Source: a virus
DNA: 54,884 bases
Reading direction: 5' to 3' (one strand)
Virus record (IMG/VR): IMGVR_UViG_3300020159_001695
Span: 1 to 54,884 of that record
Shown: one piece after another, positions 23,475 to 54,884 of the stretch
Layout of the letters: each line of letters begins with the position of its first letter
How positions within the stretch are numbered: the first letter of the stretch is position 1
Made by a program: the position numbers and the translations under genes
The notes under the pieces: generated by a model
What the model was told of the DNA's origin: nothing
Seen by the model: only the letters and a program-made list of their open reading frames with translations
Databases searched by the model: none

Positions 23475-26400
23475 TTAGAATGACATCTCAATACCTGATA
23501 TATGGGCCGTCCATTTGGTATTTATACCGAAAGATGGTTGATATGCCGTTAAATATAATTCATTAGATATAGCCGTAAATGTGAATTGTAATCCATGACC
23601 ACTATTAAAATCTTGCCAGTTAGATCCGGTAACAGAACCACCATCCATTATATAACTATTAAATATTAAAGTCCCTCCATTATTAATAATTGTAAATCTA
23701 CGTAATCCAATTTGGTATTTAGTCGATGTACTATCAATACCAATAAAATTAATCACACCTGACACCACTCTATTATTACCGGGTAGTATTGTTTTAGTCA
23801 CGTTAATAGTGTTAGTAGGGTAATCTAAATAAAAATTAGTTGTTTCATTACCTGTATTATATGATCTAGCAATCAAATCAAAATGTTTGGAATCACCAAC
23901 CGTTGAAAAAACACCTGAAGAGTGTGATCTTTCACCGTATCTACTAGCACAAGAACCATAACCTGAAGATATTGAGTAATTGCCTGACGATATATTACAT
24001 CTACCACCACCGATCATTGAATAATAACCTGATGCTGTATTACATCTACCACCACCAATAAATGAACAACCACCCGAAGTTGTATTACTTAAACCACCAC
24101 CAACAAATGAATAAACCGCCACTTCAGTTACGGTATTACAAAAACCACCACCTATAAATCCTCGATCTCCGGTTACGGTATTACAAAAACCACCACCTAT
24201 TGATGAACTATAAGCTGAAGCATTATTATTTCTACCACCACTAACCGTTGAATAATTACATAAAGCAGTATTACCATAACCCCCACTAACCGTTGAATTA
24301 GAACCACAAGCAGTGTTATTAGAACCACCTAATACAGATGAATAACAGCCATCAATTACGTTAGATGAAAATAATCTTACGGTTCCACAAGATGTTGTTC
24401 CACTATATATCGGATCATTCCAATATACCCCATCGCCATTACTTGTTAATAATTGACCACTAACACCAATAGAATTATTATTATCATATACACCACATTT
24501 TATATTTAACCTTTCAACGAATGTAGTATTTGACGTAGTTGCTGTTATATTAGAACCAATAATAAATGTATTACTGATATTTGTATAATTATTTTGTCCC
24601 CCTAAAATACCTGAACAACAACCTGATGCTGTATTACAATCACCACCACCTATAAATGAATTAGTGCCTGTGTTAGTATTATTTAAACCAGCACCCACAA
24701 AAGAATAACAACCACACGATGTATTACAATAACCAGCACCTACAAAAGAACCGGCATTACAAGATACGTTCTTAAATCCACCACCCACAAATGTTTGACC
24801 ACCTGACGCAAAATTACAACATCCACCAACTACAACCGAGTTAGATGATGATGTTGAATTACAATTACCACCACCAATAAATTGATTACATCCAGCACCG
24901 CATAACCTATTATTTTCACCACCTACAATTGATGATAGGGGTACCACAATATTATTATTACAACCACCACCTATAAATGAATTAGTACATGTGATAGTAT
25001 TATTACAACCACCTAAAATCGATGAGCAATCATTTACTACCGAATTTAATACCCCACCACCGATAACTGAACAATGTCCGCATATTAAACCACTAGCACC
25101 ACCAGCAATAACTGAACGTCTAGAGTCTCTTATTGTATTTAATATACCTCCACCAATTACGTTATATGAACAACCTGATGACATTATTGTATTACAACCC
25201 CCACCACCTATTACAGAATGAGTTGTACCTGTTATTCTATTTCTTAATCCACCGGCAATCACAGAATGTGTTGATTTAATAATATCACAACTACCCATTG
25301 TATTATTTTCACCACCACCAATTACCGCACAATCCGCACCAAATATAGTGTTTCTAAGACCACCACCAATAGTTGAAAAATATGATGTTGTTCCACTAAA
25401 TCTATATGGATTATTCCAATCTATACACTCAGACAATAATTTATTTTCACTACCACCATTAATAATAGAACCTACACCACATATTGTATTATTACAACCA
25501 CCATTAATAATATTTACACAACCATAAGTAGTATTAAAATTACCGCCAGCAATATTAGAAAAACAACCATTTAATGTATTCCCACTACCCGCAGCAATTA
25601 CACTAAACCTACCATCAATATTAGGGTTATTACCCATATTATTATTTAATCCGCCAAGGATTGATGAAAAATTACTCGACACTATATTATTACCATTAAC
25701 TCTAACCGATGAATTCACACCCAACCCACAGGTAAATATAGGTGAGGTTGATGATGTATATGTATTAAAATCAGTTATGTTTAATTTAGCGCCGATTAAA
25801 TTATTTGTATTTGACGTGTATGTATAAAAATTAGTTAAACTTAATTTACTTGTTACTGATGTGCTACCTGAAATTAAATTATCTACTGAACTCCATCTAA
25901 CACCTATCCCTGTTGATGATAAAATATTACCTGAATCACCTAACGATGAATTACTATCATATATACCATTTTTTATGTTTAAGTTTTCAACGTAAGTTGT
26001 GTCAGATGTTGATGTTGCTATGTTAGAACCTAAAATAAATGTATTACTAGCTTCTGCATTATTATTTTGACCACCTAAAATACCTGAATAATTACCTGAT
26101 GCTGTATTACGAAATCCACCACCTATAAATGAAAATCTTTCACTATTTGTATTTAAGCATCCACCACCAATAGTTGAACAATTCGCGTTAGTATCATTTG
26201 TATTACTATAACCGCCAGATATTGTTGAATAAGAACCTAAAGATGTGTTAGAACAACCACCTAATACAGATGAACCGGCATTTTGAACTTGATTACTATT
26301 ATTTATCCTTATGGTTGAACCACTACCGCCATCCTCAATAACCTTAGTTGCTAAACCAGACGTTAAAGTACCTAAACAACTATTTGTATTTGATGAGTAA

Positions 26401-27086
26401 CTACTAAAATTTGTTATATTCAGTTTAGTTCCAATTAAAGTGTTAGTATTAGAACTATATGAATTAAAATCAGTTATATTTAATTTATTATTAATAGATG
26501 GTAAATCATATGCCGATAATTTATTACCAATATATTTAGCCGCTTTAATTACAAAATTACTACTACCATCCCAATCAGAAGGGATATTTGCCGTATAAAA
26601 CTTCAATATACCTGATTCGGGATCGAATACTGAATCACCTGAACCGAATGATAAAACAGATCCACTATTATAAGTTATATAATATGAATATGGATTTCCG
26701 TATGTAAATGGGATAATATCCGTGGCACTTGGATTAACAAATGCGAATCCTTGAGAATCTGGTGTGGTTGCGTTTGAACCATTATCTTTAGTTAATGTAT
26801 ATGTTTTAACTTGAACAACCGCATTACTTTGGGTTAAACCTGTTGTTCCATCAGGATAAACATAAGAATCATTTATCAAATTTTGAACTGTTGAACCTGA
26901 TAACGTTCTAAATGTCGGTAAAAATACTGTCGGTATTTTAGACGTATCGGTCCAAATATTATTAGAAAATACTTGAAGTGGTCCGTTATACGCCTCTTCA
27001 TAGAATGCTCTATTAGTAGATGTGTCACCTTTACCTAATAGTTTCTTAAATAATCTTTGTGCTATTTCGTTTGTGCTTATTGCCAT
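23475..27086 (-). CDS. Giant fibre with beta-roll (YadA-like) repeats, fibre A
   Basis: 1203 residues. N-terminal attachment domain (about 1-195), two to three copies of a 20-residue repeat (LNITDFNSYSSNTNTLIGTK type), then long arrays of 13-16-residue units of the form SxIGGGxxNTASG, typical of left-handed beta-rolls in trimeric YadA-like adhesins and phage fibres. Two capping modules (SNTFIIGSNITATTSNTTFVE) close arrays. Near the end ASRYGERSHSSGVFSTVGDS resembles the last roll turn before C-terminal domains of phage fibres; about 130 residues of a beta tip follow. The rolls are rich in Cys (GGGCCN, GGCNN), unusual for fibres. It shares long near-identical DNA with fibre B. Confidence 0.85.
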   Translation of the reverse strand: MAISTNEIAQRLFKKLLGKGDTSTNRAFYEEAYNGPLQVFSNNIWTDTSKIPTVFLPTFRTLSGSTVQNLINDSYVYPDGTTGLTQSNAVVQVKTYTLTKDNGSNATTPDSQGFAFVNPSATDIIPFTYGNPYSYYITYNSGSVLSFGSGDSVFDPESGILKFYTANIPSDWDGSSNFVIKAAKYIGNKLSAYDLPSINNKLNITDFNSYSSNTNTLIGTKLNITNFSSYSSNTNSCLGTLTSGLATKVIEDGGSGSTIRINNSNQVQNAGSSVLGGCSNTSLGSYSTISGGYSNTNDTNANCSTIGGGCLNTNSERFSFIGGGFRNTASGNYSGILGGQNNNAEASNTFILGSNIATSTSDTTYVENLNIKNGIYDSNSSLGDSGNILSSTGIGVRWSSVDNLISGSTSVTSKLSLTNFYTYTSNTNNLIGAKLNITDFNTYTSSTSPIFTCGLGVNSSVRVNGNNIVSSNFSSILGGLNNNMGNNPNIDGRFSVIAAGSGNTLNGCFSNIAGGNFNTTYGCVNIINGGCNNTICGVGSIINGGSENKLLSECIDWNNPYRFSGTTSYFSTIGGGLRNTIFGADCAVIGGGENNTMGSCDIIKSTHSVIAGGLRNRITGTTHSVIGGGGCNTIMSSGCSYNVIGGGILNTIRDSRRSVIAGGASGLICGHCSVIGGGVLNSVVNDCSSILGGCNNTITCTNSFIGGGCNNNIVVPLSSIVGGENNRLCGAGCNQFIGGGNCNSTSSSNSVVVGGCCNFASGGQTFVGGGFKNVSCNAGSFVGAGYCNTSCGCYSFVGAGLNNTNTGTNSFIGGGDCNTASGCCSGILGGQNNYTNISNTFIIGSNITATTSNTTFVERLNIKCGVYDNNNSIGVSGQLLTSNGDGVYWNDPIYSGTTSCGTVRLFSSNVIDGCYSSVLGGSNNTACGSNSTVSGGYGNTALCNYSTVSGGRNNNASAYSSSIGGGFCNTVTGDRGFIGGGFCNTVTEVAVYSFVGGGLSNTTSGGCSFIGGGRCNTASGYYSMIGGGRCNISSGNYSISSGYGSCASRYGERSHSSGVFSTVGDSKHFDLIARSYNTGNETTNFYLDYPTNTINVTKTILPGNNRVVSGVINFIGIDSTSTKYQIGLRRFTIINNGGTLIFNSYIMDGGSVTGSNWQDFNSGHGLQFTFTAISNELYLTAYQPSFGINTKWTAHISGIEMSF
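26181..26384 (-). repeat. 204-bp direct repeat, copy 1 (fibre A)
   Basis: Collinear without gaps with 30259-30462 (offset 4078) and differing at few positions. Encodes the transition from the 20-residue repeats into the beta-roll (STIRINNSNQVQ, VLGGCSNTSLGSYS). Confidence 0.85.
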
Positions 27087-27099
27087 TTTTTATGCTTTT

Positions 27100-30000
27100 T
27101 TATGATATTGTTATTCCTGTAAATTTTTTATCGCTTCCTGTTGGTAATCCTATTCTTACATAAATAGTTCCACTTCTTGCAGTTGAACCGAATGTTATTT
27201 GTTTTGATGTTGCTGTTGATGCAGGTGCCGCCACCATTGCCGGATCACCATTACCTGATGGACTTCCACTACCAGGGTATGCTGCATTACCATCAATCCA
27301 ACCTGTCCCACTAACTCTTACATTTAAAGTTAAACCTGAAGTTACACCGTTAGCCGCCGCACCCCAAGTCGGACTAGTTCCGTTAAATGCTATTGTTACA
27401 CTATTTACTGAACTTATTGGACTTCCTGTTAGTAAGACAAATCTTGTATCAGAACCAGGTGATGAATAATCGTAACCACCATAAGATGTGTAATTTCCCG
27501 ATGGTACTTGATAACTACCATTTAATAATTGTAATTCATAATTATAAGATGTATTACCTACATTACCTACAATTCTTTCTGATGACGTATATGGTGATGT
27601 GTAAGTAACAGGGAAAAGTGTTGGATTTTCACCATCCGCAGCATTTCTTAACCTATTTTCATTTGATACTGTATCAATTCTATAATTACTCAATGTTAAT
27701 GCACTTGACGTACCTGATGCTCCGTTCGCATTATATCCTGTGGCTGTTGTTGTTAGAGTTTCACCATACCTATTATTAGATGTGGTTATTGTTTCGTTAG
27801 TTAAACTAATTGACGCACCCGATAAAGGTGGTATTGAAAAAGTAGAACTAAGATATGGGGATACAGTACCCCAAGTACCATTTGTAACTGTGTTAGGTGT
27901 TAAAGTTGCAAATGTTCCGTTGGTGTAAAACTTACTTATTGCGTTATTAACTGTATAATTTATATTTATAACATTATTTGTTGCTAATGATGGAACTCCG
28001 GATACATATCTTGTCATTGTAAATGAACCACTTTGAACTGGTGTAGTTACAGAAGGTGTTCCTGGGTTATCAATATAGAATGATGTTGGTAAAGTTCCTG
28101 TCTCACTATGAGTAAAACTATATGTATGTGATGTAAATACATTATATGGTAATGAAGTACTTGTTCTACCTGTTGCATTTATTGCTGCCCAGAATCCAGC
28201 CTTACCTGTTTGATTTAAATAGTAATCATTATCTGTTATAGTTAATCCACCATCTGTTCCATTATTAATTGATGCTGTCGATACTGTCCCACCCAATGTT
28301 TTACTACCATCAGCCGTTCCATTTACAGAAAAACTAAGTGTTCCTGATACACCATTCCAAAAACCGGTATTAGTTCCACTTGTTGCACCTGTAACTCTAA
28401 ATAAAGGTCTAGCATTGTTAAATATAACATTACTAATTGTTTGACCTGATATACCTGTCGGCCAATCACGAGACCCTCTTACTAATGAATAACCAGGACT
28501 AATCCAAGAAGATGCATCTAATCTTGGTGGTTTAGCTGGAGCTAATAAAGCCAATATTTCATCAATCTGATCAACAGCATTATTTATTGTTGTTGCTGAA
28601 GTTAATCCCAATAAACCATCACTATAACTATTATCTGATGGCGTACCTAATATTGTATTACCACCAATACCATAAAATGTATTACCTGAAATATTACCAA
28701 CTACATTTACACTACCTGTTATTGTCCCACCTGATTTATCGAATTTGGTATTTATTAAGTCATTTGTGTTTGCTGAATACGAATAAAAATTATTAGTAAA
28801 TGTGTTAAATGTAGAGGTATCTAATTTAGTTCCAATTAAAGTATTTGTATTTGATGTATAACTATATAGATTAGTTAAGAATGAGTTAAAATCACTTACA
28901 TTTAATTTATAGTTTAAATTACCCCACTCAACACCATTAGATTTTGAAAATAATACGTCATCTACCAAACCACTACTATTAGTATAATCATATATGTTAG
29001 TAGTGTATAACTCACCTAAACGTAATTTACCATAATCTTTAAAGTTTATAACACTTGTTATAGTTAAAGCTGTTGTGGTTCCTAATTGAAACTCACCCAC
29101 ATCTTCTTTATATATAAATGCGGTACTACCTGTTGTTGCTCTGTTTATCAATAAACCAGCATTTAATGTTGGTAAAGTACTTCCTGACGCTAAAACTATT
29201 ATTGGGCTTGATACAGTAATACTTTGTTGATTTACGGTGTTAGCTGTTCCTGTAATAAATAAATCACCTTGAATAAAAACACTACCACTAATAATACCAC
29301 CAGCTTTATCATACTTAGTTCCGATTAAAGTATTTGTTGTTGAACTATATATATTAAAATCAGTTGTGTTTAGTTTAGTTCCAATTAAAGTATTTGTATT
29401 TGAACTATAAACACTAAAATCACTTATATTTAATTTAGTTCCAATTAAAGTATTAGTTCCTGATGTATATGTATAAAAATTAGTTAAACTTAATTTACTC
29501 GTTACTGATGTACTACCTGAAATTAAATTATCAGCTGAACGCCATCTAGTACCTGTCCCTGTTGATGATAAAATATTACCAGCACTACCTGAAGATGAGC
29601 CATTATCGTATAATGCCGAATTAATGTTTAAGCTTTCAACGTAAGTTGTGTCAGGTGTTGATGTTGCTATGTTAGAACCTAAAATAAATGTATTACTAGC
29701 ATCCGCTACGTTTCCACTACCACCTAATATATTTGAGTAATTACAATTGGCTTTATTATTACAACCACCAACAATTGTTGAGTATTCACCTGACGCTGTG
29801 TTATTACAACCACCACCAATTACAGTACAATTACCAAGTAAAGTATTATAAGTACCACCACCTATAAAACCTCCTTGACAAGATGCTGTATTTTGAAAAC
29901 CACCACTAACGATAGAAAAATTACCACAAACTTTATTGTATGCTCCACCACCTATTGATGTTAAACATACACCACTACCACCATCTAATATTGTATTACA

Positions 30001-31485
30001 AAAACCACCACCAATTACACTACAATCAGCGTTTGTTCCAACGCAGTTAGAATTACCAGCACCAATAAATGAATAACAACCATTTACTGTATTTAATTCA
30101 CCACCTACAATCGTTGATCTCCCAACATTACCAATCGTATTTTCCCTACCACCAACAATAGTTGAATAACGACCTGATGCTGTATTACATCTACCACCAC
30201 CAATAAAAGAGAATTCTTCATTATTTGTATTCAAAGTTCCGCCAACGATAATTGAACAATTCGCGTTAGTATCATTTGTATTACTATAACCTCCAGATAT
30301 TGTTGAATAAGAACCTAAAGATGCGTTGATACAACCACCTAATACAGAAGAACCGGTATTTTGAACTTGATTATTATTATTTATCCTTATTGTTGAACCA
30401 TTACCGCCATCCTCAATAACCTTAGTTGCTAAACCGGACGTTAAAGTACCTAAACAACTATTAGTATTACTTACAAATGTATTATATGCGGATGTTTCTA
30501 CTTTATTATTTATCCTTGTATTTGTTGTTGCCGTATATGCGGTAAATGTTAAGTAATCTACCTTAGAGTCAATTTGTGTTTTAGTTGTCGCTGTGTATGC
30601 GTAAAAACTTTGGGTAAATGCTGTCCCTAAATTACCTGAACTATTTACTGTTGCTGCGGTATAAGCCCAAAATGTAGTTTTATCTAATTTTTTATTATCT
30701 GTCGCTGCGGTATAACTAAAGAAATTAGTGTTATCAACCTTAGTTCCGATTAAAGTATTTGTATTTGAACTATATGAATTAAAATCACTTGTATTTAATT
30801 TAGTTCCGATTAAAGTATTTGTATTTGATGTATAAACTACAAATGTTTCTACACTTACATTATTACCTGTTATTATTGTATTGATATTTGTCCATTCTAA
30901 ACCATCACTACCTTTAGCTAAAACTTGCCCTGTGGTTCCGCTATTGCTAGTAAAATCTAATATATCGCCTTTAATTGATATATTTTCCACATATAAAGTA
31001 TTTTCAGTTGTTGCGGTTATATTTGAACCAATAATAAATGTATTATCTGCATTTGTATAGTTATTTTGTCCTCCTAAAATAGCTGAATAAGCCCCTTCAG
31101 TTGTGTTATTACAACCACCACCGATTATCGAATAAGCCTCATTTGCTATATTACAAGAACCACCTAAAATACCTGAATACTCCCTTAATGTTGTATTATT
31201 ATCACCACCACCGATTATTGAACAGCTACTTGATGTTTGATTATTCGTACCACCTAAAATACCTGAATTTGATCCGGATGAAATATTGTCTGTTCCACCA
31301 ACAATAGTATCAGCACATACTGTCCCTGTAAATTCACTAGTATTTGGACTAAATGATACTGGCAATGTATTCCCTAAACCATCACTTATTGTATGTGTGG
31401 TTGTTCCGGTGAATGATTCATTATTAAATAATTTTAATAATGAATTAAAGGTTTTATTTATAAAATTGTTATTTAAACTTGACAT
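27100..31485 (-). CDS. Giant fibre with beta-roll (YadA-like) repeats, fibre B
   Basis: 1461 residues, the longest gene here. Short N-terminal part, a first beta-roll array and capping module (NTFIIGSNITATTENTLYVE), six or more 20-residue repeats (LNTSDFNSYSSNTNTLIGTK type), a second, long roll array with its cap (NTFILGSNIATSTPDTTYVE), further 20-residue repeats, a pectin-like beta section (IQGDLFITGTANTVNQQSITVSSPI), and a C-terminal region of about 500 residues beginning NAVDQIDEILALLAPAKPPRL, rich in Ser/Thr/Gly and probably made of beta domains for receptor contact. Gene start is 21 nt after the stop of the structural protein upstream. Fibres A and B share DNA-level repeats. Confidence 0.85.
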   Translation of the reverse strand: MSSLNNNFINKTFNSLLKLFNNESFTGTTTHTISDGLGNTLPVSFSPNTSEFTGTVCADTIVGGTDNISSGSNSGILGGTNNQTSSSCSIIGGGDNNTTLREYSGILGGSCNIANEAYSIIGGGCNNTTEGAYSAILGGQNNYTNADNTFIIGSNITATTENTLYVENISIKGDILDFTSNSGTTGQVLAKGSDGLEWTNINTIITGNNVSVETFVVYTSNTNTLIGTKLNTSDFNSYSSNTNTLIGTKVDNTNFFSYTAATDNKKLDKTTFWAYTAATVNSSGNLGTAFTQSFYAYTATTKTQIDSKVDYLTFTAYTATTNTRINNKVETSAYNTFVSNTNSCLGTLTSGLATKVIEDGGNGSTIRINNNNQVQNTGSSVLGGCINASLGSYSTISGGYSNTNDTNANCSIIVGGTLNTNNEEFSFIGGGRCNTASGRYSTIVGGRENTIGNVGRSTIVGGELNTVNGCYSFIGAGNSNCVGTNADCSVIGGGFCNTILDGGSGVCLTSIGGGAYNKVCGNFSIVSGGFQNTASCQGGFIGGGTYNTLLGNCTVIGGGCNNTASGEYSTIVGGCNNKANCNYSNILGGSGNVADASNTFILGSNIATSTPDTTYVESLNINSALYDNGSSSGSAGNILSSTGTGTRWRSADNLISGSTSVTSKLSLTNFYTYTSGTNTLIGTKLNISDFSVYSSNTNTLIGTKLNTTDFNIYSSTTNTLIGTKYDKAGGIISGSVFIQGDLFITGTANTVNQQSITVSSPIIVLASGSTLPTLNAGLLINRATTGSTAFIYKEDVGEFQLGTTTALTITSVINFKDYGKLRLGELYTTNIYDYTNSSGLVDDVLFSKSNGVEWGNLNYKLNVSDFNSFLTNLYSYTSNTNTLIGTKLDTSTFNTFTNNFYSYSANTNDLINTKFDKSGGTITGSVNVVGNISGNTFYGIGGNTILGTPSDNSYSDGLLGLTSATTINNAVDQIDEILALLAPAKPPRLDASSWISPGYSLVRGSRDWPTGISGQTISNVIFNNARPLFRVTGATSGTNTGFWNGVSGTLSFSVNGTADGSKTLGGTVSTASINNGTDGGLTITDNDYYLNQTGKAGFWAAINATGRTSTSLPYNVFTSHTYSFTHSETGTLPTSFYIDNPGTPSVTTPVQSGSFTMTRYVSGVPSLATNNVININYTVNNAISKFYTNGTFATLTPNTVTNGTWGTVSPYLSSTFSIPPLSGASISLTNETITTSNNRYGETLTTTATGYNANGASGTSSALTLSNYRIDTVSNENRLRNAADGENPTLFPVTYTSPYTSSERIVGNVGNTSYNYELQLLNGSYQVPSGNYTSYGGYDYSSPGSDTRFVLLTGSPISSVNSVTIAFNGTSPTWGAAANGVTSGLTLNVRVSGTGWIDGNAAYPGSGSPSGNGDPAMVAAPASTATSKQITFGSTARSGTIYVRIGLPTGSDKKFTGITIS
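30259..30462 (-). repeat. 204-bp direct repeat, copy 2 (fibre B)
   Basis: Partner of 26181-26384. A further homologous block links about 29480-29706 with about 25830-26060 (cap module and following LSLTNFYTYTS repeat). Confidence 0.85.
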
Positions 31486-33620: not shown

Positions 33621-33777
33621 CTGAGGCGATCGAATCTTATCGCTCCACCAATCCATTTTCTAACATTTAAAGTTTGATAAAAAGGATAAAACCTCAACCT
33701 TTATTAACATCTTAGCCAAATAATTAATTATTTGTTTCTACCAATTACCTCGTAGCGGTGTGTTAAAATCAATCGGC
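33621..33777 (-). other. Non-coding stretch between tmRNA and terminator, with hairpins
   Basis: This 157-nt piece holds no ORF. It contains a perfect 16-base palindrome (33718-33733) and a hairpin GAGCGAT / ATCGCCTC with one bulge (about 33622-33645). It would form the 3' trailer of the tmRNA precursor or a separate small RNA. A tRNA cloverleaf could not be built from it. Confidence 0.35.
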
Positions 33778-34147
33778 TGGACTTTGGGGGATTCGAACCC
33801 CCGTTCCCGTAATTTGTAATCAATTAAATTATTTACAAGCTTAGGTTATTTTCTTACAACCAAATATCCCTCTTATTTTAACACCAATCAGGAAAATGTG
33901 TGATAGTTATTAACTACTCTACCAAAAGGGTTTGCTGTGTTTGGCTTAAAGCCAAATTCACTTAAGCTAACTCAAGTTCAGCTTCTTGAGTTTTGAAGCT
34001 CTTCATAAGTGAAGTTGGGAGGCTCATCATGTCCTCTGAATTGTAACCGTTGCCAGTTGATTTTTTTGCTTCAGTTTTTAAAGACTTAGTGCAGGTCTTG
34101 CTTGTTTAAAAGGCTCAAACATTACAGGTCAAAACCAGTAAAAGCCC
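33778..34147 (-). ncRNA. ssrA: tmRNA (one-piece), phage-encoded
   Basis: About 370 nt. The 5' end GGGCTTTTACTGGTTTTGACC matches the tmRNA consensus start. Acceptor stem GGGCTTT pairs with AAAGTCC with a G3-U70 wobble, the alanine identity element, and discriminator A; CCA is not encoded. Helix 2 forms between CCTGTAA..TTTG and CAAATTACGGG. The T arm is GGGGG-TTCGAAT-CCCCC. A first hairpin AAGAC/GTCTT precedes the messenger part; a perfect 8-bp helix AACTCAAG/CTTGAGTT and a hairpin TTGGCTT/AAGCCAA follow. It rescues stalled ribosomes by trans-translation. The tag frame is described separately. It lies 27 nt downstream of hsp20 and may be processed from that transcript. Confidence 0.93.
33962..34054 (-). 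other. Proposed tmRNA tag reading frame (30 codons)
   Basis: By alignment to the E. coli segment GCAAAAAATAGTC-GCA, the resume site falls near GGC at 34054-34052. This frame runs 30 codons to TAA at 33964-33962, starting GNGYNSEDMM and ending EAELELA. The stop lies just after the 8-bp helix, as in other tmRNAs. Bacteroidota tags usually start with G but are 8-10 residues ending ALAA. The other two frames stop earlier without an Ala-rich end. Frame choice is inference. Confidence 0.55.
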
Positions 34148-38085: not shown

Positions 38086-41019
38086 TTATACATTCTCAAA
38101 TGAAGCCCCTTGAGGTGTGATAACAAACTGAATGTTAATATACTCCAAAGCCGATGTTGGTTTTAGAAAAATTGTTCCATTCAATTCATTATTATCAATA
38201 TCTTCAGGTGCGTTACTCAATTTAACTCTGAAATCTGTTAAACCTCTTTCTCTTCTGATACCATCTAAGATTGGATTTACCAAATTCAAGAAGTCGTTTC
38301 TTACTTGTTGATCGTTTGGTTGGAATAATAATCTTAAACCAACTGCTGCGATAAGCTTTCTTGTTTGTAGTAATAATCTTCTGATATTTAATCTATCAAG
38401 AACAGAATCTCTGATTTGTAAGTTTCTATTACCCCAAATAACCGGACCAACACCTCTAAATGTAGCGATTGGATTGATTCTACCTGGATATAATGTATCT
38501 CTATCTGTTTGAGATAATTTTCTTCTTGGTTTTGATATAACTAAACCTCTTTCAGTTCCTGCAATTGCATACCATTCGTAAGAGATGTTATCAGTTAAAG
38601 CTAAGTTTCTTACAACTTCAGCTGTTGGTGGCATCCATACCTTAGAATTATTTTCTGTGTCATTATAAAGAACGAATGGATAATAAGTTGCTGTATAGTT
38701 AGAATCGATACCTACTTCATCTAATATTGAAACAACCGTATTTGAATCATACCAATTGTTAGTATCTGAAGAATCAGGGGCAAACATATTAATATCAGGT
38801 AAAGTTGGAATATAGATACTATCAGCTCTGTCATTTTCAACCATATCAATTGTATATTCAACCAATGATGAGTTGTTTTCAATATCAATACCTGGAGTTA
38901 CCAATACATTGATATCCGCATCTTCAGGATTTGAATACTTTTCAATAGCCGTTCTATAAGCGTAGTAGTCAGAATTACCAAGAGCACTAAATCCTTCGTT
39001 AGTATAAGTGGTTTGTCCAATTCTATAACTATCACCGTTAGTTCTATAAGCTCTATAAATATCCCATCCATCATAACCACCATAAGGCGCTACCGTGAAT
39101 TTTCTACTTAATAAACTTGAATAAGGTGTTCCTGTTGTTCCCGCTTCTGTTTGGAATGGAGCTACACCAACATCAAATGTTGCCGCTACGCCATTTACAC
39201 TTACACTTGTTGCTCCCGAATCCATATGGAAACCATTAGTTGTTGTAGTTGAAGCCACATTACCTTTATATTGGAAGAAATCACTATCATAACTCCAGAA
39301 ATTACTATCAGAAATACCTAAGAAAGATTTTCTAATGTTATCTCCACTTGAAATTACTGGTGAAATACCTGCTGGTGGATTTGTAATTGTTTCACCCGCT
39401 GTAAAGTATTTAGTTTTATATTGAATTTTAGGGTTAGCTGTTCCTGAACCATAAGTTCTAATAGTATAACCCATAAAACCTGCTGGAACCGCTGTAGATG
39501 GAGCATCGGTAGCGATTTCAATCATAATGTATTTAGATTTTAAATCATATTTACCATCAATAGTTCCAACTTTTTTACCGATATAAGTCAATTGACTTTC
39601 ATCCATTGAACATCTAACGTATTTTTCTAAAATAACAGGATTGGCATCCGTATCGTTAAAATCTCTTACGATTAAATCAAATTCTCTTCTCTCTAAATTG
39701 ATATTTTGAATTGATATTTTAACTAAAGTATTTGCCGCTTCACCATCAGAAATTGTTATAACCCTAAATAATTTGAATACGTCAGTTCCTCTTAATTCTG
39801 ATACGAAATAAGGTGTTGCTGGTGTAGCCCATTGTTCTTTATAGTCAGTCATATTTACACCTGATGAAGATGAGTTAGTAGTTAAAGTACTTTTTAAACC
39901 TCTAATATAACCTTTTAAATAACCATAGTTTAATAACTCAGTATATATCTCTTCAACAAATAAAGCACTTTGCTTTTCTTTTGGTTGCTTACCTAATACA
40001 AGTGGTATATATTCTTTCTTAGTGTTATCCATACTAACAGAGTAATTGAATGATGCTCCAGCCGTAGTTGTTCCGCTTAATTTGAAACCACCTTTAGAAT
40101 TTAATGTGATATCATCTATCGGTATTAAAATAGGATTTCCACTAACAACCGGTGTTAATGTATTGTTAGACCAATTAGCATCACTTCTTAATGTTGCCAC
40201 TACTAAATTATCCCAACCACTATAACCTGCAACTGATGCGTCATAAGTAATGAAATTAGTTGTACCCGTGTAAGTACCACCCGGATTTAAAGTTAAACCT
40301 GTAACATAAACACCATAGGTAATACCTGAAAATGTATTTACTCCTGTTGATACGAATAAATTATTAAGCCAAGTACTATCACTTGTATTACTATTTAAAA
40401 CATCTGTCATTGATGACGTTGTAATACCTGTAATTGTTGAAATTGTTGTAGCACTTAAATCACCATATCTATATGATATAGTTGATGCCGATAACGCCCC
40501 AATTCTTGAACCGTATGAACTAACAACTGAACTAAAGAATTGATTAGTTGTTGCTGACACCACCCTTTGATAAGGTGATAAGAATGATGGGTATGTAAAT
40601 GTTAATGTTCCACCAGTTGTTAATTGGAATGGTGTATAAACATTTGTTGGACCCGCTAATGATATTGTTGAAATATCAGGTTGTGCAATTGTGCTGATTG
40701 ACCAAGCCGAACCCGCATCATAACCACTTAAACCTAATATTCTTGTCATATACATTTGACTTGCTTGAGATAAGTATTCTCTCGCTATGTAATTACCTTC
40801 ATATTTTAAAATTTGTGTCCCTGAAAATTTTTCAGGATTTGCACCACCGAAATAAGTAGTGAATTCATCGTAGTTTTTTACTAAAATCGGTTCAAACGCT
40901 GGTCCTCTTTGAGCCTCACCTACTATACCTAATGAACTAACACCTAAGCTTTGTGCCGCAAAGGTTAAGTCAACTTCACTCGTATATACACCAGGTGATA
41001 CGTTTATTTGTTCTGCCAT
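38086..41019 (-). CDS. 18: Tail sheath protein (gp18-like)
   Basis: 977 residues, much larger than T4 gp18 (659). The N-terminus INVSPGVYTSEVDLTFAAQSLGVSSLGIVGEAQRGPAF is the sheath signature. The C-terminal contraction domain is also clear: LYPGRINPIATFRGVGPVIWGNRNLQ, LNIRRLLLQTRKLIAAVGLRLLFQPND and LVNPILDGIRRERGLTDF. The extra length lies between about residues 110 and 640, where several beta-rich insertions (Ser/Thr/Gly-rich) would form outer-surface domains on the contracted tail. It closes the tail operon and is followed by a strong terminator. A late-type octamer lies 36 nt upstream. Confidence 0.95.
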   Translation of the reverse strand: MAEQINVSPGVYTSEVDLTFAAQSLGVSSLGIVGEAQRGPAFEPILVKNYDEFTTYFGGANPEKFSGTQILKYEGNYIAREYLSQASQMYMTRILGLSGYDAGSAWSISTIAQPDISTISLAGPTNVYTPFQLTTGGTLTFTYPSFLSPYQRVVSATTNQFFSSVVSSYGSRIGALSASTISYRYGDLSATTISTITGITTSSMTDVLNSNTSDSTWLNNLFVSTGVNTFSGITYGVYVTGLTLNPGGTYTGTTNFITYDASVAGYSGWDNLVVATLRSDANWSNNTLTPVVSGNPILIPIDDITLNSKGGFKLSGTTTAGASFNYSVSMDNTKKEYIPLVLGKQPKEKQSALFVEEIYTELLNYGYLKGYIRGLKSTLTTNSSSSGVNMTDYKEQWATPATPYFVSELRGTDVFKLFRVITISDGEAANTLVKISIQNINLERREFDLIVRDFNDTDANPVILEKYVRCSMDESQLTYIGKKVGTIDGKYDLKSKYIMIEIATDAPSTAVPAGFMGYTIRTYGSGTANPKIQYKTKYFTAGETITNPPAGISPVISSGDNIRKSFLGISDSNFWSYDSDFFQYKGNVASTTTTNGFHMDSGATSVSVNGVAATFDVGVAPFQTEAGTTGTPYSSLLSRKFTVAPYGGYDGWDIYRAYRTNGDSYRIGQTTYTNEGFSALGNSDYYAYRTAIEKYSNPEDADINVLVTPGIDIENNSSLVEYTIDMVENDRADSIYIPTLPDINMFAPDSSDTNNWYDSNTVVSILDEVGIDSNYTATYYPFVLYNDTENNSKVWMPPTAEVVRNLALTDNISYEWYAIAGTERGLVISKPRRKLSQTDRDTLYPGRINPIATFRGVGPVIWGNRNLQIRDSVLDRLNIRRLLLQTRKLIAAVGLRLLFQPNDQQVRNDFLNLVNPILDGIRRERGLTDFRVKLSNAPEDIDNNELNGTIFLKPTSALEYINIQFVITPQGASFENV

Positions 41020-46224: not shown

Positions 46225-46650
46225 TTACTTTATTTTTATGTACTTATACCAAACTCTTTCGTGTAGGAAATAAATAACGGGCTTTAATACTAATTCACCC
46301 ACACCTAACATTGAAGCCAATGCTATTGGAGCTCCTAAACAATACGCAGTTATTACAGTTGTTAAAGTCCCCAAAAACCTGTATGATATTGTTTTTAATA
46401 AATGTCTTTTAAATGCCGAATCTTTTGGTGGTGTTGTAATGTAAGCAATATTATCTTTAATAACACAATTACCTTTACAAGTAATATGCCACTTATAACC
46501 TAAACCATCCATATGATCTTTTGTTGTGAATACCTCACCATCAACAAAAATATCTGAAACCAATATTTCTTCACCATCATCAGGTATTAATCGCCATCTT
46601 ACCTCTTCTGTTGTTGAATTTGTATTAAATCTAATTTTATAAGTTTTCAT
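46225..46650 (-). CDS. DUF2061 membrane protein with N-terminal soluble domain
   Basis: 141 residues. The N-terminal 75 residues are a small beta domain with CKGNC. Residues 78-141 match DUF2061: FKRHLLKTISYRFLGTLTTVITAYCLGAPIALASMLGVGELVLKPVIYFLHERVWYK, with two membrane segments and the conserved HERVW end. DUF2061 is often found next to or fused with sulfate-activation genes (cysC, cysN), which agrees with this operon: its start overlaps the stop of the nucleotidyltransferase (TAATG). Possible role in sulfate or sulfonate handling at the membrane; not established. Confidence 0.82.
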   Translation of the reverse strand: MKTYKIRFNTNSTTEEVRWRLIPDDGEEILVSDIFVDGEVFTTKDHMDGLGYKWHITCKGNCVIKDNIAYITTPPKDSAFKRHLLKTISYRFLGTLTTVITAYCLGAPIALASMLGVGELVLKPVIYFLHERVWYKYIKIK

Positions 46651-47054
46651 TATAATTTACCTTCTGTTCTTAATTGCTCTCTTATTTTTGTTGCCGAAAT
46701 ATTGGCGATATCTAATGGTGGTAAATGTTCAATAATATCATATCCAACACCTCTACCAAACTCTACTGAACAAATATCAGGAATTACCATAATTTTAACT
46801 TTACCCTCAACACATTCCGTATAATAATGTTCCATAATCATAGCTTCCACTTGTTTAGCTGTAAATGGATTTTTTTCATCTGGTTGAATATCTCTAATAC
46901 AAATTAAGATATTTTTACCTTCATTCATTGCTTGTTGAAACATCTCTTGATGTCCTTTATGTAATGGTTGCCATCTACCAATAAACATTGCGTATTGTCC
47001 TTCTTTACGTTCTAATGATGACTGAACGTGTAATTTTTTATACCAATCCGACAT
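46650..47054 (-). CDS. HxGH nucleotidyltransferase (NMNAT/adenylyltransferase-like)
   Basis: 134 residues. MFIGRWQPLHKGHQEMFQQA carries the HxGH ATP-binding motif, and ISATKIREQL near the C-terminus is the ISxTxxR motif of this superfamily. NPFTAKQVEAMI is typical of NadM-like enzymes. It transfers a nucleotide from NTP to a phosphorylated (or sulfate) substrate. Overlap of 17 nt with APS kinase suggests one pathway; an unusual ATP-sulfurylase role (sulfate + ATP to APS) would complete PAPS synthesis but the sequence is closer to NMN or sugar-phosphate nucleotidyltransferases. Exact substrate uncertain. Confidence 0.78.
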   Translation of the reverse strand: MSDWYKKLHVQSSLERKEGQYAMFIGRWQPLHKGHQEMFQQAMNEGKNILICIRDIQPDEKNPFTAKQVEAMIMEHYYTECVEGKVKIMVIPDICSVEFGRGVGYDIIEHLPPLDIANISATKIREQLRTEGKL

Positions 47055-47493
47055 ATTCTATAATCTCCTTTATACATTCTTCTGGTGTTATATTTGTTGT
47101 ATTCATATCCAAATAATTTGATACAGGTTTTTGAAAATCCTCAACGTGGAATTGTTCCCTACCCCTTATTTCTGTTGTATGAACATAAACCTCAAAAACA
47201 TCTTTTGTGTTATTTTTAAATTCTTCTCTTATATCTAAATAAGGTGTCATAAGCGACACTACAACGTGAAATCCTTTATTTTGTAGATATTTAGCAATTA
47301 CTTGAGCATTACGAATATTTTGTTCTCTACCTGTTCTTGAATAATCTTTATTTATTGTAAGATTTCTTAAATCATCGCCATCAATGTGAAATACATCATT
47401 ATGGGCTGTTTGATCGATATGCTGTTCTAATAATTTAGCGAGAACTGTTTTACCATGACCCGCTTGTCCGATTAACCATATAATTTTAGTCAT
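47038..47493 (-). CDS. cysC: Adenylylsulfate (APS) kinase
   Basis: 151 residues. P-loop GQAGHGKTVLAKLL, then HIDGDDLRNLTINKDYSRTGREQNIRNAQVIAKYLQNKGFHVVVSLMTPY (family: LDGDNxR...GFSxxDRxENIRRxxEVAxLxxxAGxxVxxSxISP), FEVYVHTTEIRGREQFHVEDFQKP, and DMNTTNITPEECIKEII. It phosphorylates adenylylsulfate to PAPS, the sulfonate donor for sulfotransferases. It is slightly shorter than bacterial CysC (about 200) but has all main motifs. The lid sequence differs (FHVEDFQ in place of RDPKGLY), so a nucleotide-related kinase is the alternative. First gene of a three-gene overlapping operon. Confidence 0.85.
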   Translation of the reverse strand: MTKIIWLIGQAGHGKTVLAKLLEQHIDQTAHNDVFHIDGDDLRNLTINKDYSRTGREQNIRNAQVIAKYLQNKGFHVVVSLMTPYLDIREEFKNNTKDVFEVYVHTTEIRGREQFHVEDFQKPVSNYLDMNTTNITPEECIKEIIEYVGLV

Positions 47494-47877: not shown

Positions 47878-50307
47878 TTATAAATTATATCTTGTTCTTA
47901 AAGCGTTATAATTTTGTATTACTTCCGCTTGATTTAAATCCCTATTATATAGTGAAAAATTACTTAGATTGGCGGTGCATGCACCAGGAATGTTCGCGCC
48001 CGTATTCATTGAGTTGAATAATAAATTAAAATTTGTTGCGGCTGATTGATCGGATGTTAGTGTTAATATTCCATCGGTATAAAATCTTAAAACTCTCGAT
48101 GAATTAACTGTCATACATATGTTATGCCATTTAGAATGAAAACTATTTTGAGATTCAAATGATATCCTTTGACCTACATCAACACCACCTTGAGTACCAA
48201 AAGGGTTAAAAATAACAACCCCATTACTTGATGATGTCGATATATACATATCACTTCTATAAATAGCTAAATTAGCACCCGCACCGGATGTAAATGTATT
48301 ATCAATCGATCCGTCAGTATTTAACCTTATTAAATTATTATACGTCACTCCACTATATGTTGTAGGAACATTTGTACTGGTTGTATTGAAATTGGCATCT
48401 GTTAATACTATTATTTTACCATCTGATTGTAAATCTATTGAGTTAATATACGTATTAAACCCACTACCTGTTACAAATGTATTATCTATTGTCCCACCAC
48501 TATTTAACCTGATTATCCTATTTGCAGTTACACCACTATATGATGTAAAAAAGCCACCTAATAATATTTTATTATCGGGTTGAATTCTTACACAATTTAC
48601 GTGATTATCAAAACCCGCTCCTGTGGTGAAAGTATTATCAATTGTCCCATTTGTATTTAATTTAACTATTCTATTCGCAGTAATACCACTATACGTTATA
48701 AACCTACCTGCCACCAATATCTTACCATCGGCAGTTACCTTAATACCATTACCGCATGGGTATTGATTTGACGTACTACCCGCATTTGCAAAACCAGCCC
48801 CCACAACAAATGATGTGTCAGCCAAACCTGTTGTACCATTTATTTTTACTATTCTTGGATATGACGCATTATTAAATGTTGTAAAATTACCGCCGACATA
48901 ATAATCGTTATTACTATCTGCAACAATACTACTAACAGATGTTGAATTAAAACCGGTTAAAGTGTTAAATGACGTATCAGGTGTTAAATTAGATAAGTTT
49001 ATTTTCGCTATTTTATTTACCGTTACTCCACTATATACCGTCGCCCAACCACCAACAACAACCATTTTTTGATTGACTAAATCCAATACTAATGTTCCTT
49101 CGTCATTAATTTGCGGTCCTCCACCACCTGAAGTTGCTGGAAATGTTGATACGGTATTACCACTTAAATCTATTTTCTTTAAACCATAATTACCAATATT
49201 TGTTCCAACAATATATGCGTTATTTTGATTGTCAAATATAATTTCACGTATATTTGTAACACCACCTAACGCATAATTGGCATTAAATGTCGTATCAATT
49301 GTTCCACCTGATAAAATTTTAGTTATAAAAGCTCTTTCTAAACCTTGATAACCTCTATATTCACCCATAATATAAATATTATTGGAGTTATCTACTTTAA
49401 CCCTCGATATGGTGTAATATAAAGATAAATCAATGCGATTAGCATAGGCTGTTGTATTACCTCTTGTTAAATTAAGAGTTTGTGAAGTTATTGCGCTCGT
49501 TATATTCCATTTATACCAATAATTTGCCGTCCAAGTTGATGCACTTATTTGTGTTGCCGATATTGTATCATCTAAACCATCAAATGATAGAGATCCGTAA
49601 TTTCCCCTACTATACCCAATACCATTATTTAATGATACGGTTGAGTTATTACCGCTTAAATCATTCATTGTAGTATTAATAGTAGTACTAAAAGGTATAT
49701 ATCCCGGATCGGTTGTTAATACCGCCAAATCATTATTTACAGTTCCACCTGATGTTGGAATTGATCTTGCAATTACCAATCCTGATATGTAATAAGTATC
49801 TCCAGTGTTATTAGCGGAAACACCTGACCCATATGAAAAACTAAAGTCAAACCAATTACTCGCATTATAATTACCGCCAGTATCCCAAGTTAATAATTGA
49901 GTCCAAGTCGTTGCTGTCCCTATTATTGCGGTAGCAAAACCCGGACCACCATTATCTGAAATATCAATTTGAATATTCGCTGTTGGATTATTTGTTGTTT
50001 CACCTCTAACATACATTGAATACCTATAAAATCCATTACCTAATGTTCCTATCGCTTCAGATGATGTTAATCTATGTAAAGAATTTACGAAACCTGTTCC
50101 ACATACCAACCTATAAACAGGAGCACCTGCAATTGGGGGTGTGATTGTCCCACCTGTCACTAATGTCATTGTTGATCTAATTACATTCCAACTTGTTAAA
50201 ACTGGTGATATATTTCTTATTGGAATACTAAACGATTTTGGATTAAAAGTGTCTATATTTAACAATAATCCATCAGTTACAACCCTATTTCTATTAATTA
50301 CTGCCAT
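47878..50307 (-). CDS. LamG-fold virion protein with inserted seven-repeat delta-60 propeller
   Basis: 809 residues. Residues 1-200 include a carbohydrate-binding-like beta domain (VIRSTMTLVTGG...TWTQLLTWDTGG). LamG begins near 205 (LSGNNSTVSLNNGIGYSRGNYGSLSFDGLDDTI) and resumes near 705 (GQRISFESQNSFHSKWHNICMTV...LRFYTDGILTL), ending NRDLNQAEVIQNYNALRTRYNL like its paralogs. Between them (about 300-700) lie seven delta-60-like repeats (GTIDNTFVTGSGFN..I..QSDGKIIV, VGGNFTTFNN, VAGRFITYSG), forming a probable seven-bladed beta-propeller inserted into the LamG jelly roll. Likely a receptor or glycan-binding virion protein. Confidence 0.8.
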   Translation of the reverse strand: MAVINRNRVVTDGLLLNIDTFNPKSFSIPIRNISPVLTSWNVIRSTMTLVTGGTITPPIAGAPVYRLVCGTGFVNSLHRLTSSEAIGTLGNGFYRYSMYVRGETTNNPTANIQIDISDNGGPGFATAIIGTATTWTQLLTWDTGGNYNASNWFDFSFSYGSGVSANNTGDTYYISGLVIARSIPTSGGTVNNDLAVLTTDPGYIPFSTTINTTMNDLSGNNSTVSLNNGIGYSRGNYGSLSFDGLDDTISATQISASTWTANYWYKWNITSAITSQTLNLTRGNTTAYANRIDLSLYYTISRVKVDNSNNIYIMGEYRGYQGLERAFITKILSGGTIDTTFNANYALGGVTNIREIIFDNQNNAYIVGTNIGNYGLKKIDLSGNTVSTFPATSGGGGPQINDEGTLVLDLVNQKMVVVGGWATVYSGVTVNKIAKINLSNLTPDTSFNTLTGFNSTSVSSIVADSNNDYYVGGNFTTFNNASYPRIVKINGTTGLADTSFVVGAGFANAGSTSNQYPCGNGIKVTADGKILVAGRFITYSGITANRIVKLNTNGTIDNTFTTGAGFDNHVNCVRIQPDNKILLGGFFTSYSGVTANRIIRLNSGGTIDNTFVTGSGFNTYINSIDLQSDGKIIVLTDANFNTTSTNVPTTYSGVTYNNLIRLNTDGSIDNTFTSGAGANLAIYRSDMYISTSSSNGVVIFNPFGTQGGVDVGQRISFESQNSFHSKWHNICMTVNSSRVLRFYTDGILTLTSDQSAATNFNLLFNSMNTGANIPGACTANLSNFSLYNRDLNQAEVIQNYNALRTRYNL

Positions 50308-51728: not shown

Positions 51729-54700
51729 TTAATATGTTTGTGCTATTATAGTTGATGCCCAAAGGTAAGTATCTGTATTACCTGTTACTACCAATCTAAT
51801 GTTGTTGCTTGAAATGTCAATACCTACATTCGTATTATTGTTATCTCGATTTACAAAACCTTGATCTACCCCTACCTGAGTTAAACTACCTGTTAAACTT
51901 CTCTTAGCGGTATATTTGTATTCACTTATTGTTGAATCCATATTGGCGTTATTAGCCCTACCTAAAGTATTTGCCGTTAAGAATACTGTTTGTCCTGTCG
52001 GTATTGCTAATTGATATAATACCGAAACTGATGAACCAGTTGTTAATCCACTTACTTGAGACATTCTATAACCTAATCCAATACCTTCATTAAATATTAA
52101 ATCAGATTGAACTGTTACGGTTGAAGCACTATTTCTAATAACACCAAATGTTAGAGTTTTACCTGTCTTACTTAAAACTGTATTAGGGAAATCATATATA
52201 TTAACATCCCAATTTGAGGTTGCGTCAATTATTGGTAATCCTGATACGTCATTAACCCCATAAATTGTTCCTGATATTACATCACTTACAGTTAATTGTG
52301 TTCCGATATTTGTTGCTCCGAAATCCGCAATTATATTTGTGGCCCCTGTCCAAGTTAAAGTTGTTCCTGTGAAAAGGGTTTGGACTGATAACGCTTTATT
52401 TGTTTGGTTATGTTGAGCGTATATTATTGTTGGATTAATATATGTAGCATATAATGTATCACAAGCAGTCCCTCTTTGAGTTAATGTCTGATTTAAATTC
52501 CAACCACAAGTGTTATTAGCTGTTGCTGTAAATGTTCCATTAAATAAGTGTTGTCCTGTATTTAAAGCCGTATATAATGATAAAGGTGTTGAGTTTCTAA
52601 CAAGTAATGCACATCCTGAAGATGCTGATGTTCCTTGTAATAATGTTTGTCCGCAAGCATTTATACATTGAGTGAATGTTGTGTTAATAGCATTTGCCGT
52701 AATATTTGAACCTAAAATAAATGAGTTATTACAAGTTGTTGTATTATTTCTACCGCCTAATATATATCCAAATGCTCCTGTTACGGTATTACCTGAACCA
52801 CCTAAAATACCTGAATATGTTCCTGATGCCGTATTTCTACTACCACCAACAACTGCCGAGTATGCTCCTGTAAATCCTGATAAACCAGCAACTATACCAC
52901 TATTAATACCTTGAGCTGAGTTATAACAACCACCACCTATAAAAGAACAGGCTCCGACACCACAATTCTCCCTACCACCAATAACCGCAGAAAACTGACC
53001 TGATGTTCTATTTAAACAACCACCACCTATAATTGAACCATAACCTGATGCGGTATTACTCTTACCACCAATAACGGCTGCGTATGAAGAAGAACTTGTA
53101 TTATTATTACCTAATGCGATTGATACTGTTTGAGAAGCAACTGCTAATCTACCACCAGCAATACTACAAATTCCGGATGCTGTATTTGATAAACCACCAA
53201 TTACGGTTGAGAAGTTACCTGAAGCCGTATTAAGACAACCACCACCTATTGTTGAGTTAATACCTGATATTGTATTATTACTACCACCACCAATTACAGA
53301 TGAACCACTAAATGTGACATTCCTAAATCCACCACCAATAGATGAATAATTACCTGAATTTGTTGTATTACAAGATCCACCACCAATGAAACCAAAACAA
53401 TTTGAGTTTGTATTACAAAATCCACCACCAATAGAACCATATGAACCAAGAGCCGCAACTACCGTGTTTGATACACCGCCACCAACAAATGACGCATATG
53501 CGGAAGCGGAATTTAAACATCCACCTGCCACGGCAGAGAAACAAGACAACGTTCTATTTCTTGTTCCACCACCAATAAACCCTAAAGCACCATTTATTGT
53601 ATTAAATGTTCCACCACCAATATTACTACAAGTTGCGGTTACAAGTGTAACATTCCCACATCCACCACCAATAAAAGTATATACTCCGGTTGTTGTATTA
53701 CCTGAACCACTAAATATACCTGAGTATGTTGTGGCGGGAGTAATATTATTAAATGACCCTCCCCCAATAACAGAATAGTCCCCTGATGACGTATTTTTAA
53801 ATCCACCACCAAGAAATGAAGTTGAACCTGTGACAATATTTAACCTACCACCAGCAATAACTGAATATGTCCCTGAAGCGGTATTTCCTGTTCCACTTAA
53901 TACACCTGAATAGTTTCCTGATGTTATATTATTAGCATTTATCCTTACTGTTGATAATATACCTGAACCAAGTTCAATTACTTTATTATTAGTTAATCCT
54001 GTTACAATGCCATCTATATTATTCCATCTTACACCTGATGGTGATGTAAATAATACTTGATTTGTTGTTCCTGATGTGTTTGTACTATCATAGATGTAAG
54101 TTTTTACATTGAATGAATTACCACTTACATCACCTAAACCTGTCACTGCAAATGTATTAGTGCCAGCATTATTCTGAACCTCAATTACTCTATCAGTTTC
54201 AGCCGCACTACCCCTCCTAAATGTCACGGCACCTAATGTTGAATCTGTTAAAATCTCAGGTTGAGATGAGTTATCGTATGCTTGTTGTAATGTAGTTGTT
54301 GATAAACCACCTGTTCCACCTAATAATTCACCAAACTTTGATACTAAAGTAAATCTAGCATAATTAGTATTAGTCAATGGCTCACCATCCGCAACAATGT
54401 CATTCCTTACCGAAATAATACCAATTAAAATACCGGTGGTTTCAGCATTAGGGTATATGACAAAAGATTCTGTTTGTATTCCAGCAACCGCAGCTGTTAA
54501 ATTAGGGTAGTTTGTTTGTCCGTATAGAATATTTATAACACCAGTTGGATATAAATAAACCCTTTGGTTACTAGCATTATCACTACCCGCACCACCCATA
54601 CTGGTTATTACACCACCGACATCATATTTTGTAGGGTCAATCACGCTTACACTTGAAGAAGTTCCACCTGTTTGTGTTCTATAAAAAAAAGACGCTGGTG

Positions 54701-54875
54701 AATTAGCCGCTATTGATACTGAATTTGGATTTAATTGATTTGTTGTCCAACCAATACCATTACCCCATAACACCCCTGCTGATGTGTTAATTTCTAAAGT
54801 TGTTGAGTGTGGTGATACAATAATACCTTGATTTACCAATTTAATTGGTGTCCATAAATCACGCAATGCTGACAT
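51729..54875 (-). CDS. Giant fibre with beta-roll (YadA-like) repeats, fibre C
   Basis: 1048 residues. N-terminal domain (about 1-265) begins MSALRDLWTPIKLVNQGIIVSPHSTT and includes GGTGGLSTTTLQQAYDNSSQPEI, a segment frequent at fibre N-termini. About residues 300-760 are beta-roll units (SxIGGGxxNTASG) like fibres A and B, also Cys-rich (GGGCGNVT, GGGCYNS), closed by a degenerate cap (NNSFILGSNITANAINTTFTQ). The C-terminal 280 residues form beta domains (NTSGQHLFNG..., TGLTTGSSVSVLYQLAIP). It is complete in the window, ending two bases before the LamG gene. Fibre A and B 20-residue repeats are absent. Confidence 0.85.
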   Translation of the reverse strand: MSALRDLWTPIKLVNQGIIVSPHSTTLEINTSAGVLWGNGIGWTTNQLNPNSVSIAANSPASFFYRTQTGGTSSSVSVIDPTKYDVGGVITSMGGAGSDNASNQRVYLYPTGVINILYGQTNYPNLTAAVAGIQTESFVIYPNAETTGILIGIISVRNDIVADGEPLTNTNYARFTLVSKFGELLGGTGGLSTTTLQQAYDNSSQPEILTDSTLGAVTFRRGSAAETDRVIEVQNNAGTNTFAVTGLGDVSGNSFNVKTYIYDSTNTSGTTNQVLFTSPSGVRWNNIDGIVTGLTNNKVIELGSGILSTVRINANNITSGNYSGVLSGTGNTASGTYSVIAGGRLNIVTGSTSFLGGGFKNTSSGDYSVIGGGSFNNITPATTYSGIFSGSGNTTTGVYTFIGGGCGNVTLVTATCSNIGGGTFNTINGALGFIGGGTRNRTLSCFSAVAGGCLNSASAYASFVGGGVSNTVVAALGSYGSIGGGFCNTNSNCFGFIGGGSCNTTNSGNYSSIGGGFRNVTFSGSSVIGGGSNNTISGINSTIGGGCLNTASGNFSTVIGGLSNTASGICSIAGGRLAVASQTVSIALGNNNTSSSSYAAVIGGKSNTASGYGSIIGGGCLNRTSGQFSAVIGGRENCGVGACSFIGGGCYNSAQGINSGIVAGLSGFTGAYSAVVGGSRNTASGTYSGILGGSGNTVTGAFGYILGGRNNTTTCNNSFILGSNITANAINTTFTQCINACGQTLLQGTSASSGCALLVRNSTPLSLYTALNTGQHLFNGTFTATANNTCGWNLNQTLTQRGTACDTLYATYINPTIIYAQHNQTNKALSVQTLFTGTTLTWTGATNIIADFGATNIGTQLTVSDVISGTIYGVNDVSGLPIIDATSNWDVNIYDFPNTVLSKTGKTLTFGVIRNSASTVTVQSDLIFNEGIGLGYRMSQVSGLTTGSSVSVLYQLAIPTGQTVFLTANTLGRANNANMDSTISEYKYTAKRSLTGSLTQVGVDQGFVNRDNNNTNVGIDISSNNIRLVVTGNTDTYLWASTIIAQTY

Positions 54876-54884
54876 TGGTGATAC

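Follow-up and report, generated by a model that had tools for sequence, protein, structure and literature searches.

A T4-like phage represented by a 54,884-base IMG/VR virus record, the whole of which is the window analyzed here, likely carries a sulfonation cassette fed by a third kind of ATP sulfurylase. Sequence, structure prediction, and genome context are the basis on which the functional steps of this cassette are inferred. The candidate enzyme, a nucleotidyltransferase (NTASE) of 115–150 aa, is found in phages, Flavobacteriales, Marinimicrobia, Marine Group III archaea, and others. Textbook sulfate activation uses two ATP sulfurylases, Sat and CysDN. The broader proposal, that NTASE is a third, independently evolved class and that phages sulfonate their own virions with PAPS derived from it, has about an even chance of being correct. 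The features of the window are as follows.

12114–13955: gp23-type capsid protein, which marks the phage as T4-like
21736–22554, minus strand: PAPS-type sulfotransferase (SULFOT), 272 aa, PF13469
22554–23438, minus strand: GT9-fold glycosyltransferase, translationally coupled to the sulfotransferase
23475–27086, minus strand: giant fibre-type protein, 1203 aa, 36 nt upstream of the GT9 gene; putative acceptor
27100–31485, minus strand: another giant fibre-type protein with the same class of repeat, 1461 aa; putative acceptor
38086–41019: tail sheath, which marks the phage as T4-like
46225–46650, minus strand: DUF2061 membrane protein whose N-terminal soluble domain is conserved, 141 aa, PF09834
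46650–47054, minus strand: HxGH nucleotidyltransferase NTASE, proposed compact ATP sulfurylase, 134 aa, PF01467
47038–47493, minus strand: APS-kinase-like enzyme KIN with a shortened lid, 151 aa, PF01583
51729–54884, minus strand: fibre-type beta-roll protein, located upstream of the cassette on its kinase side; putative acceptor

The sulfation gene set reported in the initial annotation was confirmed. The three overlapping minus-strand genes at 46225–47493 are present as described, with kinase, NTASE, and DUF2061 ORFs overlapping by 17 and 1 nt. The sulfotransferase and GT9-like pair placed elsewhere in the window was located at 21736–23438 beside the fibre genes, and the 36-nt gap from the giant fibre gene (27086..23475) to the GT9 gene is correct. 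A DUF5122 beta-propeller protein (window 47878–50307, 166 bits) also adjoins the cassette.

In the proposed mechanism, NTASE would convert sulfate and ATP to APS and pyrophosphate, the ATP-sulfurylase step, and KIN would phosphorylate APS to PAPS. The DUF2061 protein would probably tie the NTASE-KIN pair to the membrane or aid sulfate supply. The sulfotransferase would then move sulfuryl from PAPS, the universal sulfate donor, onto an acceptor. Together with other glycosyltransferases of the phage, the GT9-fold enzyme would have built this acceptor, which is most likely a sugar carried by the Ser/Thr-rich fibres of the phage itself.

KIN matches APS_kinase PF01583 at 63.8 bits (cut-off 21.1) and falls well short of the TIGR00455 APS-kinase equivalog cut-off (66.7 vs 138.7 bits). 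A single-sequence scan gave only three close relatives, and alignment queries were needed to collect the family. Its 168 relatives keep the P-loop, DGDDLR, and NIR motifs, with G14, K15, D40, R43, R56, and R89 conserved at 0.99–1.00 and N59 at 0.93. The CysC lid KGLYKKAR..FTGIDSPYE is absent from phage KIN, which has a shorter RGREQFHVEDFQKP segment instead. All top PDB matches are APS kinases or PAPS synthetases, and these agree with the Pfam match and conserved motifs in supporting the kinase type first assigned. The phage kinase is divergent and its lid short, so its substrate nucleotide could differ, and the pair could make a PAPS-like donor of another group, as for the Campylobacter jejuni APS-kinase relative of capsular phosphoramidate synthesis. 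The known phosphoramidate pathway requires a glutamine kinase and an amidase and has a different nucleotidyltransferase family. Neither a glutamine kinase nor an amidase was seen in the cassette, and in cells the relatives are partnered by canonical CysC, CysQ, and APS reductase; a donor of this kind is most improbable.

Four separate searches of IMG/VR, with NTASE, kinase, DUF2061, and sulfotransferase, supplied the relatives, and profiles built from the matches were run over all open frames. NTASE-anchored counts were restricted to distinct loci with room on both sides, and partners were accepted within four genes on the same strand. KIN was present in 49/49 of these viral loci, DUF2061 in 46/49, SULFOT in 36/49, and all five genes in 32/49, so the co-occurrence in relatives on which the initial annotation had made its proposal depend was found. 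Around the kinase (50 loci), NTASE was found in 44, DUF2061 in 39, and a sulfotransferase in 24. The grouping is not attributable to chance, because scores of distinct viral contigs contain these same families together; compact sets of this kind occur in many aquatic phages. Cassette neighbours are nearly always within 20 nt of each other and frequently overlap. All adjacent KIN-NTASE pairs are within 20 nt, and median gaps are −1 nt for SULFOT-KIN and −0.5 nt for GT9-SULFOT pairs. Two near relatives (L002 and L003) share one gene order: a sulfotransferase, a gene of 86 aa, then kinase, NTASE, and DUF2061. In L003 this block is preceded by a giant fibre gene. Sulfotransfer_3 was above cut-off in 32/43 long cassette records and in 3/28 control records from T4-like phages, retrieved with the capsid protein (Fisher p ~1e-7), a contrast inflated somewhat because the controls are shorter on average; the three positive controls are all close kin of the window phage. 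Some phages encode kinase and NTASE with no sulfotransferase detected. The correlation of kinase and NTASE distances is weak (0.30), and no claim of co-evolution is therefore made.

Among named phages, similarity searches gave distant matches only, including fused kinase-NTASE proteins in Casjensviridae and phage DLP6. The Casjensviridae fusions (L005, L007, and L008) are from Xanthomonas and Stenotrophomonas phages. In a Stenotrophomonas phage, the gene preceding the fusion carries a NADAR annotation, and close to the CysC of a jumbo phage is a protein resembling NADAR by eye.

A canonical Sat elsewhere in the cassette phages was considered and rejected; PF01747 was above cut-off in 0/47 viral records. 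PAPS reductase was likewise found in 0/47, while the same search was positive in 14/14 reference genomes. This absence favours sulfonation over a role of kinase and NTASE as auxiliary genes for host sulfur assimilation. Phage cysC has commonly been given such an assimilatory annotation, and a review places viral cysC under assimilatory sulfate reduction as an untested gene whose role is not validated (PMC12713726). In the cassette phages, however, the kinase is coupled to a sulfotransferase instead. Assimilation was rejected for these 47 records and is a highly improbable explanation of the pair.

NTASE matches CTP_transf_like PF01467 at 29.6 bits (cut-off 21). It falls below cut-off for Sat PF01747 (21.9 vs 24.3 bits) and for the TIGR01527 NMN adenylyltransferase equivalog (34.4 vs 181.2 bits). 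A profile search of the PDB matched NMN adenylyltransferases and did not match ATP sulfurylases. The AlphaFold (AF2) model has a pLDDT of 91, and its closest solved fold is MTH NMNAT. The NMNAT catalytic residues R11, H16, H19, and R136 align to NTASE R27, H32, H35, and R125, and NTASE has in common with the archaeal enzyme (NadM, MTH NMNAT) the fold core and the GRxQPxHxGH and SxTxxR motifs. Unlike that enzyme, NTASE lacks about 24 residues of the acceptor region, with 24 profile positions from the third strand to SxTxxR compared to 48 residues in NMNAT. It has two extra near-invariant arginines, R54 and R101, and a GRxVGY motif that, like R54, is near-invariant across 176 phage, 42 non-SAR11 cellular, and 30 SAR11 sequences. 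NTASE is thus NMNAT-like by sequence and fold and is neither Sat nor CysD. The initial annotation had proposed Sat and NadM as comparisons, and structure and sequence place the protein in neither; it forms a separate family that sits in the ATP-sulfurylase position in cells.

NMNATs being the closest solved structures, NTASE could be an adenylyltransferase for NMN or another cofactor and the kinase could act on a nucleoside, in an NAD-type rebuilding pathway to which the sulfotransferase link is incidental. The NADAR-annotated gene adjoining the Casjensviridae fusion and the NADAR-like protein, by eye, near the jumbo phage kinase would fit such a pathway. Against it, the NMNAT equivalog cut-off is missed widely and the acceptor region is reduced, and NAD rebuilding cannot explain the replacement of CysD beside bona fide CysC or the operons with CysQ or APS reductase described below. 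NAD salvage is disfavoured by equivalog scores and genome context and is improbable.

NTASE relatives in cells are found in sulfate-activation contexts. Flavobacteriales have the operon order CysC, NTASE, a DeoC-family gene, and CysQ. Nitrospiraceae have a sulfite/nitrite reductase-family protein, a thioredoxin-dependent APS reductase (TIGR02055, 271.9 bits, cut-off 235.3), and NTASE. Fusions of NTASE with APS kinase occur in both domain orders in phages and cells. Kinase-first fusions are found in phages, Acidobacteria, a Nomurabacterium, and others, and NTASE-first fusions in Omnitrophota, a planctomycete, and Scalindua. Marinimicrobia encode NTASE near a Sulfotransfer_5 protein, and in a Crocinitomicaceae MAG it has two sulfotransferases for neighbours. 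The two-step arrangement of PAPS synthetase (PAPSS) and Sat/CysC, ATP sulfurylase followed by APS kinase, is matched here, also in fused form; the difference is that NTASE is an NMNAT-like domain of 115–150 aa that is not PF01747 and lacks the large Sat domain.

The strongest single test of the NTASE role is CysD replacement. An even draw of 298 genomes covered a single order, the one to which a Flavobacteriales genome belongs. NTASE is encoded in nine, each with APS kinase and without CysD. A further 60 genomes of the draw, all NTASE-negative, include 26 with APS kinase, and 26/26 of these have CysD. The split (0/9 vs 26/26) has a chance probability of 1.4e-8 assuming independent genomes, a value that overstates the case for replacement because the genomes are not independent; several of those compared are also incomplete. 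With 11 NTASE-selected Bacteroidota added, CysD was found in 1/20 genomes positive for NTASE and CysC (Fisher 4.8e-12). The lone CysD-bearing genome, a flavobacterial one, has a second CysC directly before CysD. In the flavobacterial genome G112, that of locus L419, CysC occurs at two loci: the first lies on the NTASE contig and the second adjoins CysD. No Sat was found in 14/14 NTASE-positive Bacteroidota tested from the set of 20. The flavobacterial NTASE operon has the same CysC and CysQ neighbours as the CysDN, CysC, and CysQ system of Bacteroidota, but CysD is missing where NTASE occurs and the NTASE fold differs from that of CysD. Since CysD is absent from all but one of these genomes with both CysC and NTASE, NTASE appears to fill the ATP-sulfurylase place that CysC needs. 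Sat and NTASE co-exist in three Nitrospiraceae genomes, which counts against this assignment, as does the single flavobacterial genome with CysD. Pelagibacteraceae (SAR11) encode NTASE mostly with a divergent, low-scoring kinase (L443, L446–L484, and L486–L488), and genes for a Rieske oxygenase, a methyltransferase, and an enoyl-CoA hydratase are its neighbours; in SAR11 the pair may have another function, or a further one. Taken with the sequence and the model, these contexts suggest that NTASE quite likely catalyzes the ATP-sulfurylase reaction.

The initial annotation held that the phage boosts PAPS. The APS-kinase type on which this rested stands, but the phage probably does not stop at raising PAPS from host APS: it carries candidates for both steps from sulfate to PAPS.

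The DUF2061 protein matches PF09834 at 51.8 bits (cut-off 23.1), and its gene follows NTASE in most relatives at a median gap of −4 nt. DUF2061 was said to occur near sulfate-activation genes, and this holds in cells, where two Chitinophagaceae encode DUF2061-CysC fusions that adjoin NTASE.

SULFOT matches Sulfotransfer_3 PF13469 at 72.5 bits (cut-off 27). Its PRxGST motif (residues 12–17), R115, and S123 are invariant, and these kept PAPS-binding motifs bear out the original call of a PAPS-type enzyme, which very likely uses PAPS. The GT9-like protein is below the PF01075 cut-off (12.2 vs 22 bits), and 10/34 relatives match PF01075 at E<=0.1. A PDB sequence search with the GT9-like profile gave no match, and structure prediction was therefore used. 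The AlphaFold (AF2) model has a pLDDT of 92, and its Foldseek PDB matches include Escherichia coli heptosyltransferase II, among the best (E 2.7e-9), WaaC, and TibC. The glycosyltransferase first named from weak sequence similarity thus has a clear GT9 fold by prediction. TibC, an adhesin heptosyltransferase, has the same fold as the phage enzyme at about 14% sequence identity. TibC glycosylates a repeat-rich adhesin.

Fibre-type repeat proteins flank both gene sets in the window. The protein at 23475–27086 has 16 [IV]GGG repeat motifs, is 36% S/T/N, and matches the fibre cluster found beside the cassettes of relatives. That at 27100–31485 is 39% S/T/N and matches the same cluster, as does the protein at 51729–54884 (53% identity), whose LbR_Ice_bind match is below cut-off (E 0.00099). 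Fibre-type genes adjoin the module in 31/67 loci by homology clusters, which were used instead of a stricter regular-expression count of fibre neighbours (19/115). Given the fibre genes beside the module and the presence of TibC in the GT9 fold group, the favoured product is a sulfated fibre glycan, and a glycan on the phage fibres is the acceptor with a probability just short of even. The closest solved chains to SULFOT are protein-tyrosine sulfotransferases (TPSTs), and the product may alternatively be tyrosine sulfate.

Sulfonation could instead be directed at a host surface polysaccharide, blocking competing phages or keeping progeny from adsorbing to the spent cell. GT9 is the fold of LPS heptosyltransferases, and in a Crocinitomicaceae MAG a KIN-NTASE-DUF2061 set has as neighbours two sulfotransferases and the ATPase of an ABC transporter, an arrangement that resembles export and modification of a surface polysaccharide. 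The phage cassette, however, lies among tail-sheath and fibre genes, where late expression and virion modification fit better, and a host-surface target is rather unlikely.

Searches of openly licensed papers, which are no proof of absence, found none on this or another third ATP sulfurylase or on sulfated virions; none found among them joined phage cysC to phage sulfotransferases. Phage sulfotransferases of the Sulfotransfer_3 family, such as those of OM43 phages, were described in 2023 as unclear in function (PMC10580990). The window enzyme belongs to the same Pfam family as these marine phage proteins and differs in being tied to its own PAPS-making genes. If the sulfonation proposal is true, phage sulfotransferases would have a pathway that supplies their donor, and their part in sulfating virions or host surfaces would become testable. 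A third, very small ATP sulfurylase in abundant marine lineages would likewise change how sulfate users are recognized from genomes; lineages bearing NTASE are currently scored as lacking the ATP-sulfurylase step.

At 33703–34147 on the minus strand, the window also encodes a phage tmRNA (Rfam 67.3 bits) and an HDV-like ribozyme (48.7 bits) that starts at the base directly after the tmRNA discriminator A. Self-cleavage by the ribozyme would yield a tmRNA to which CCA can be added directly. Theta ribozymes, which are HDV-like, have been described next to phage tRNAs in a report whose main text does not mention tmRNA (PMC10879173).
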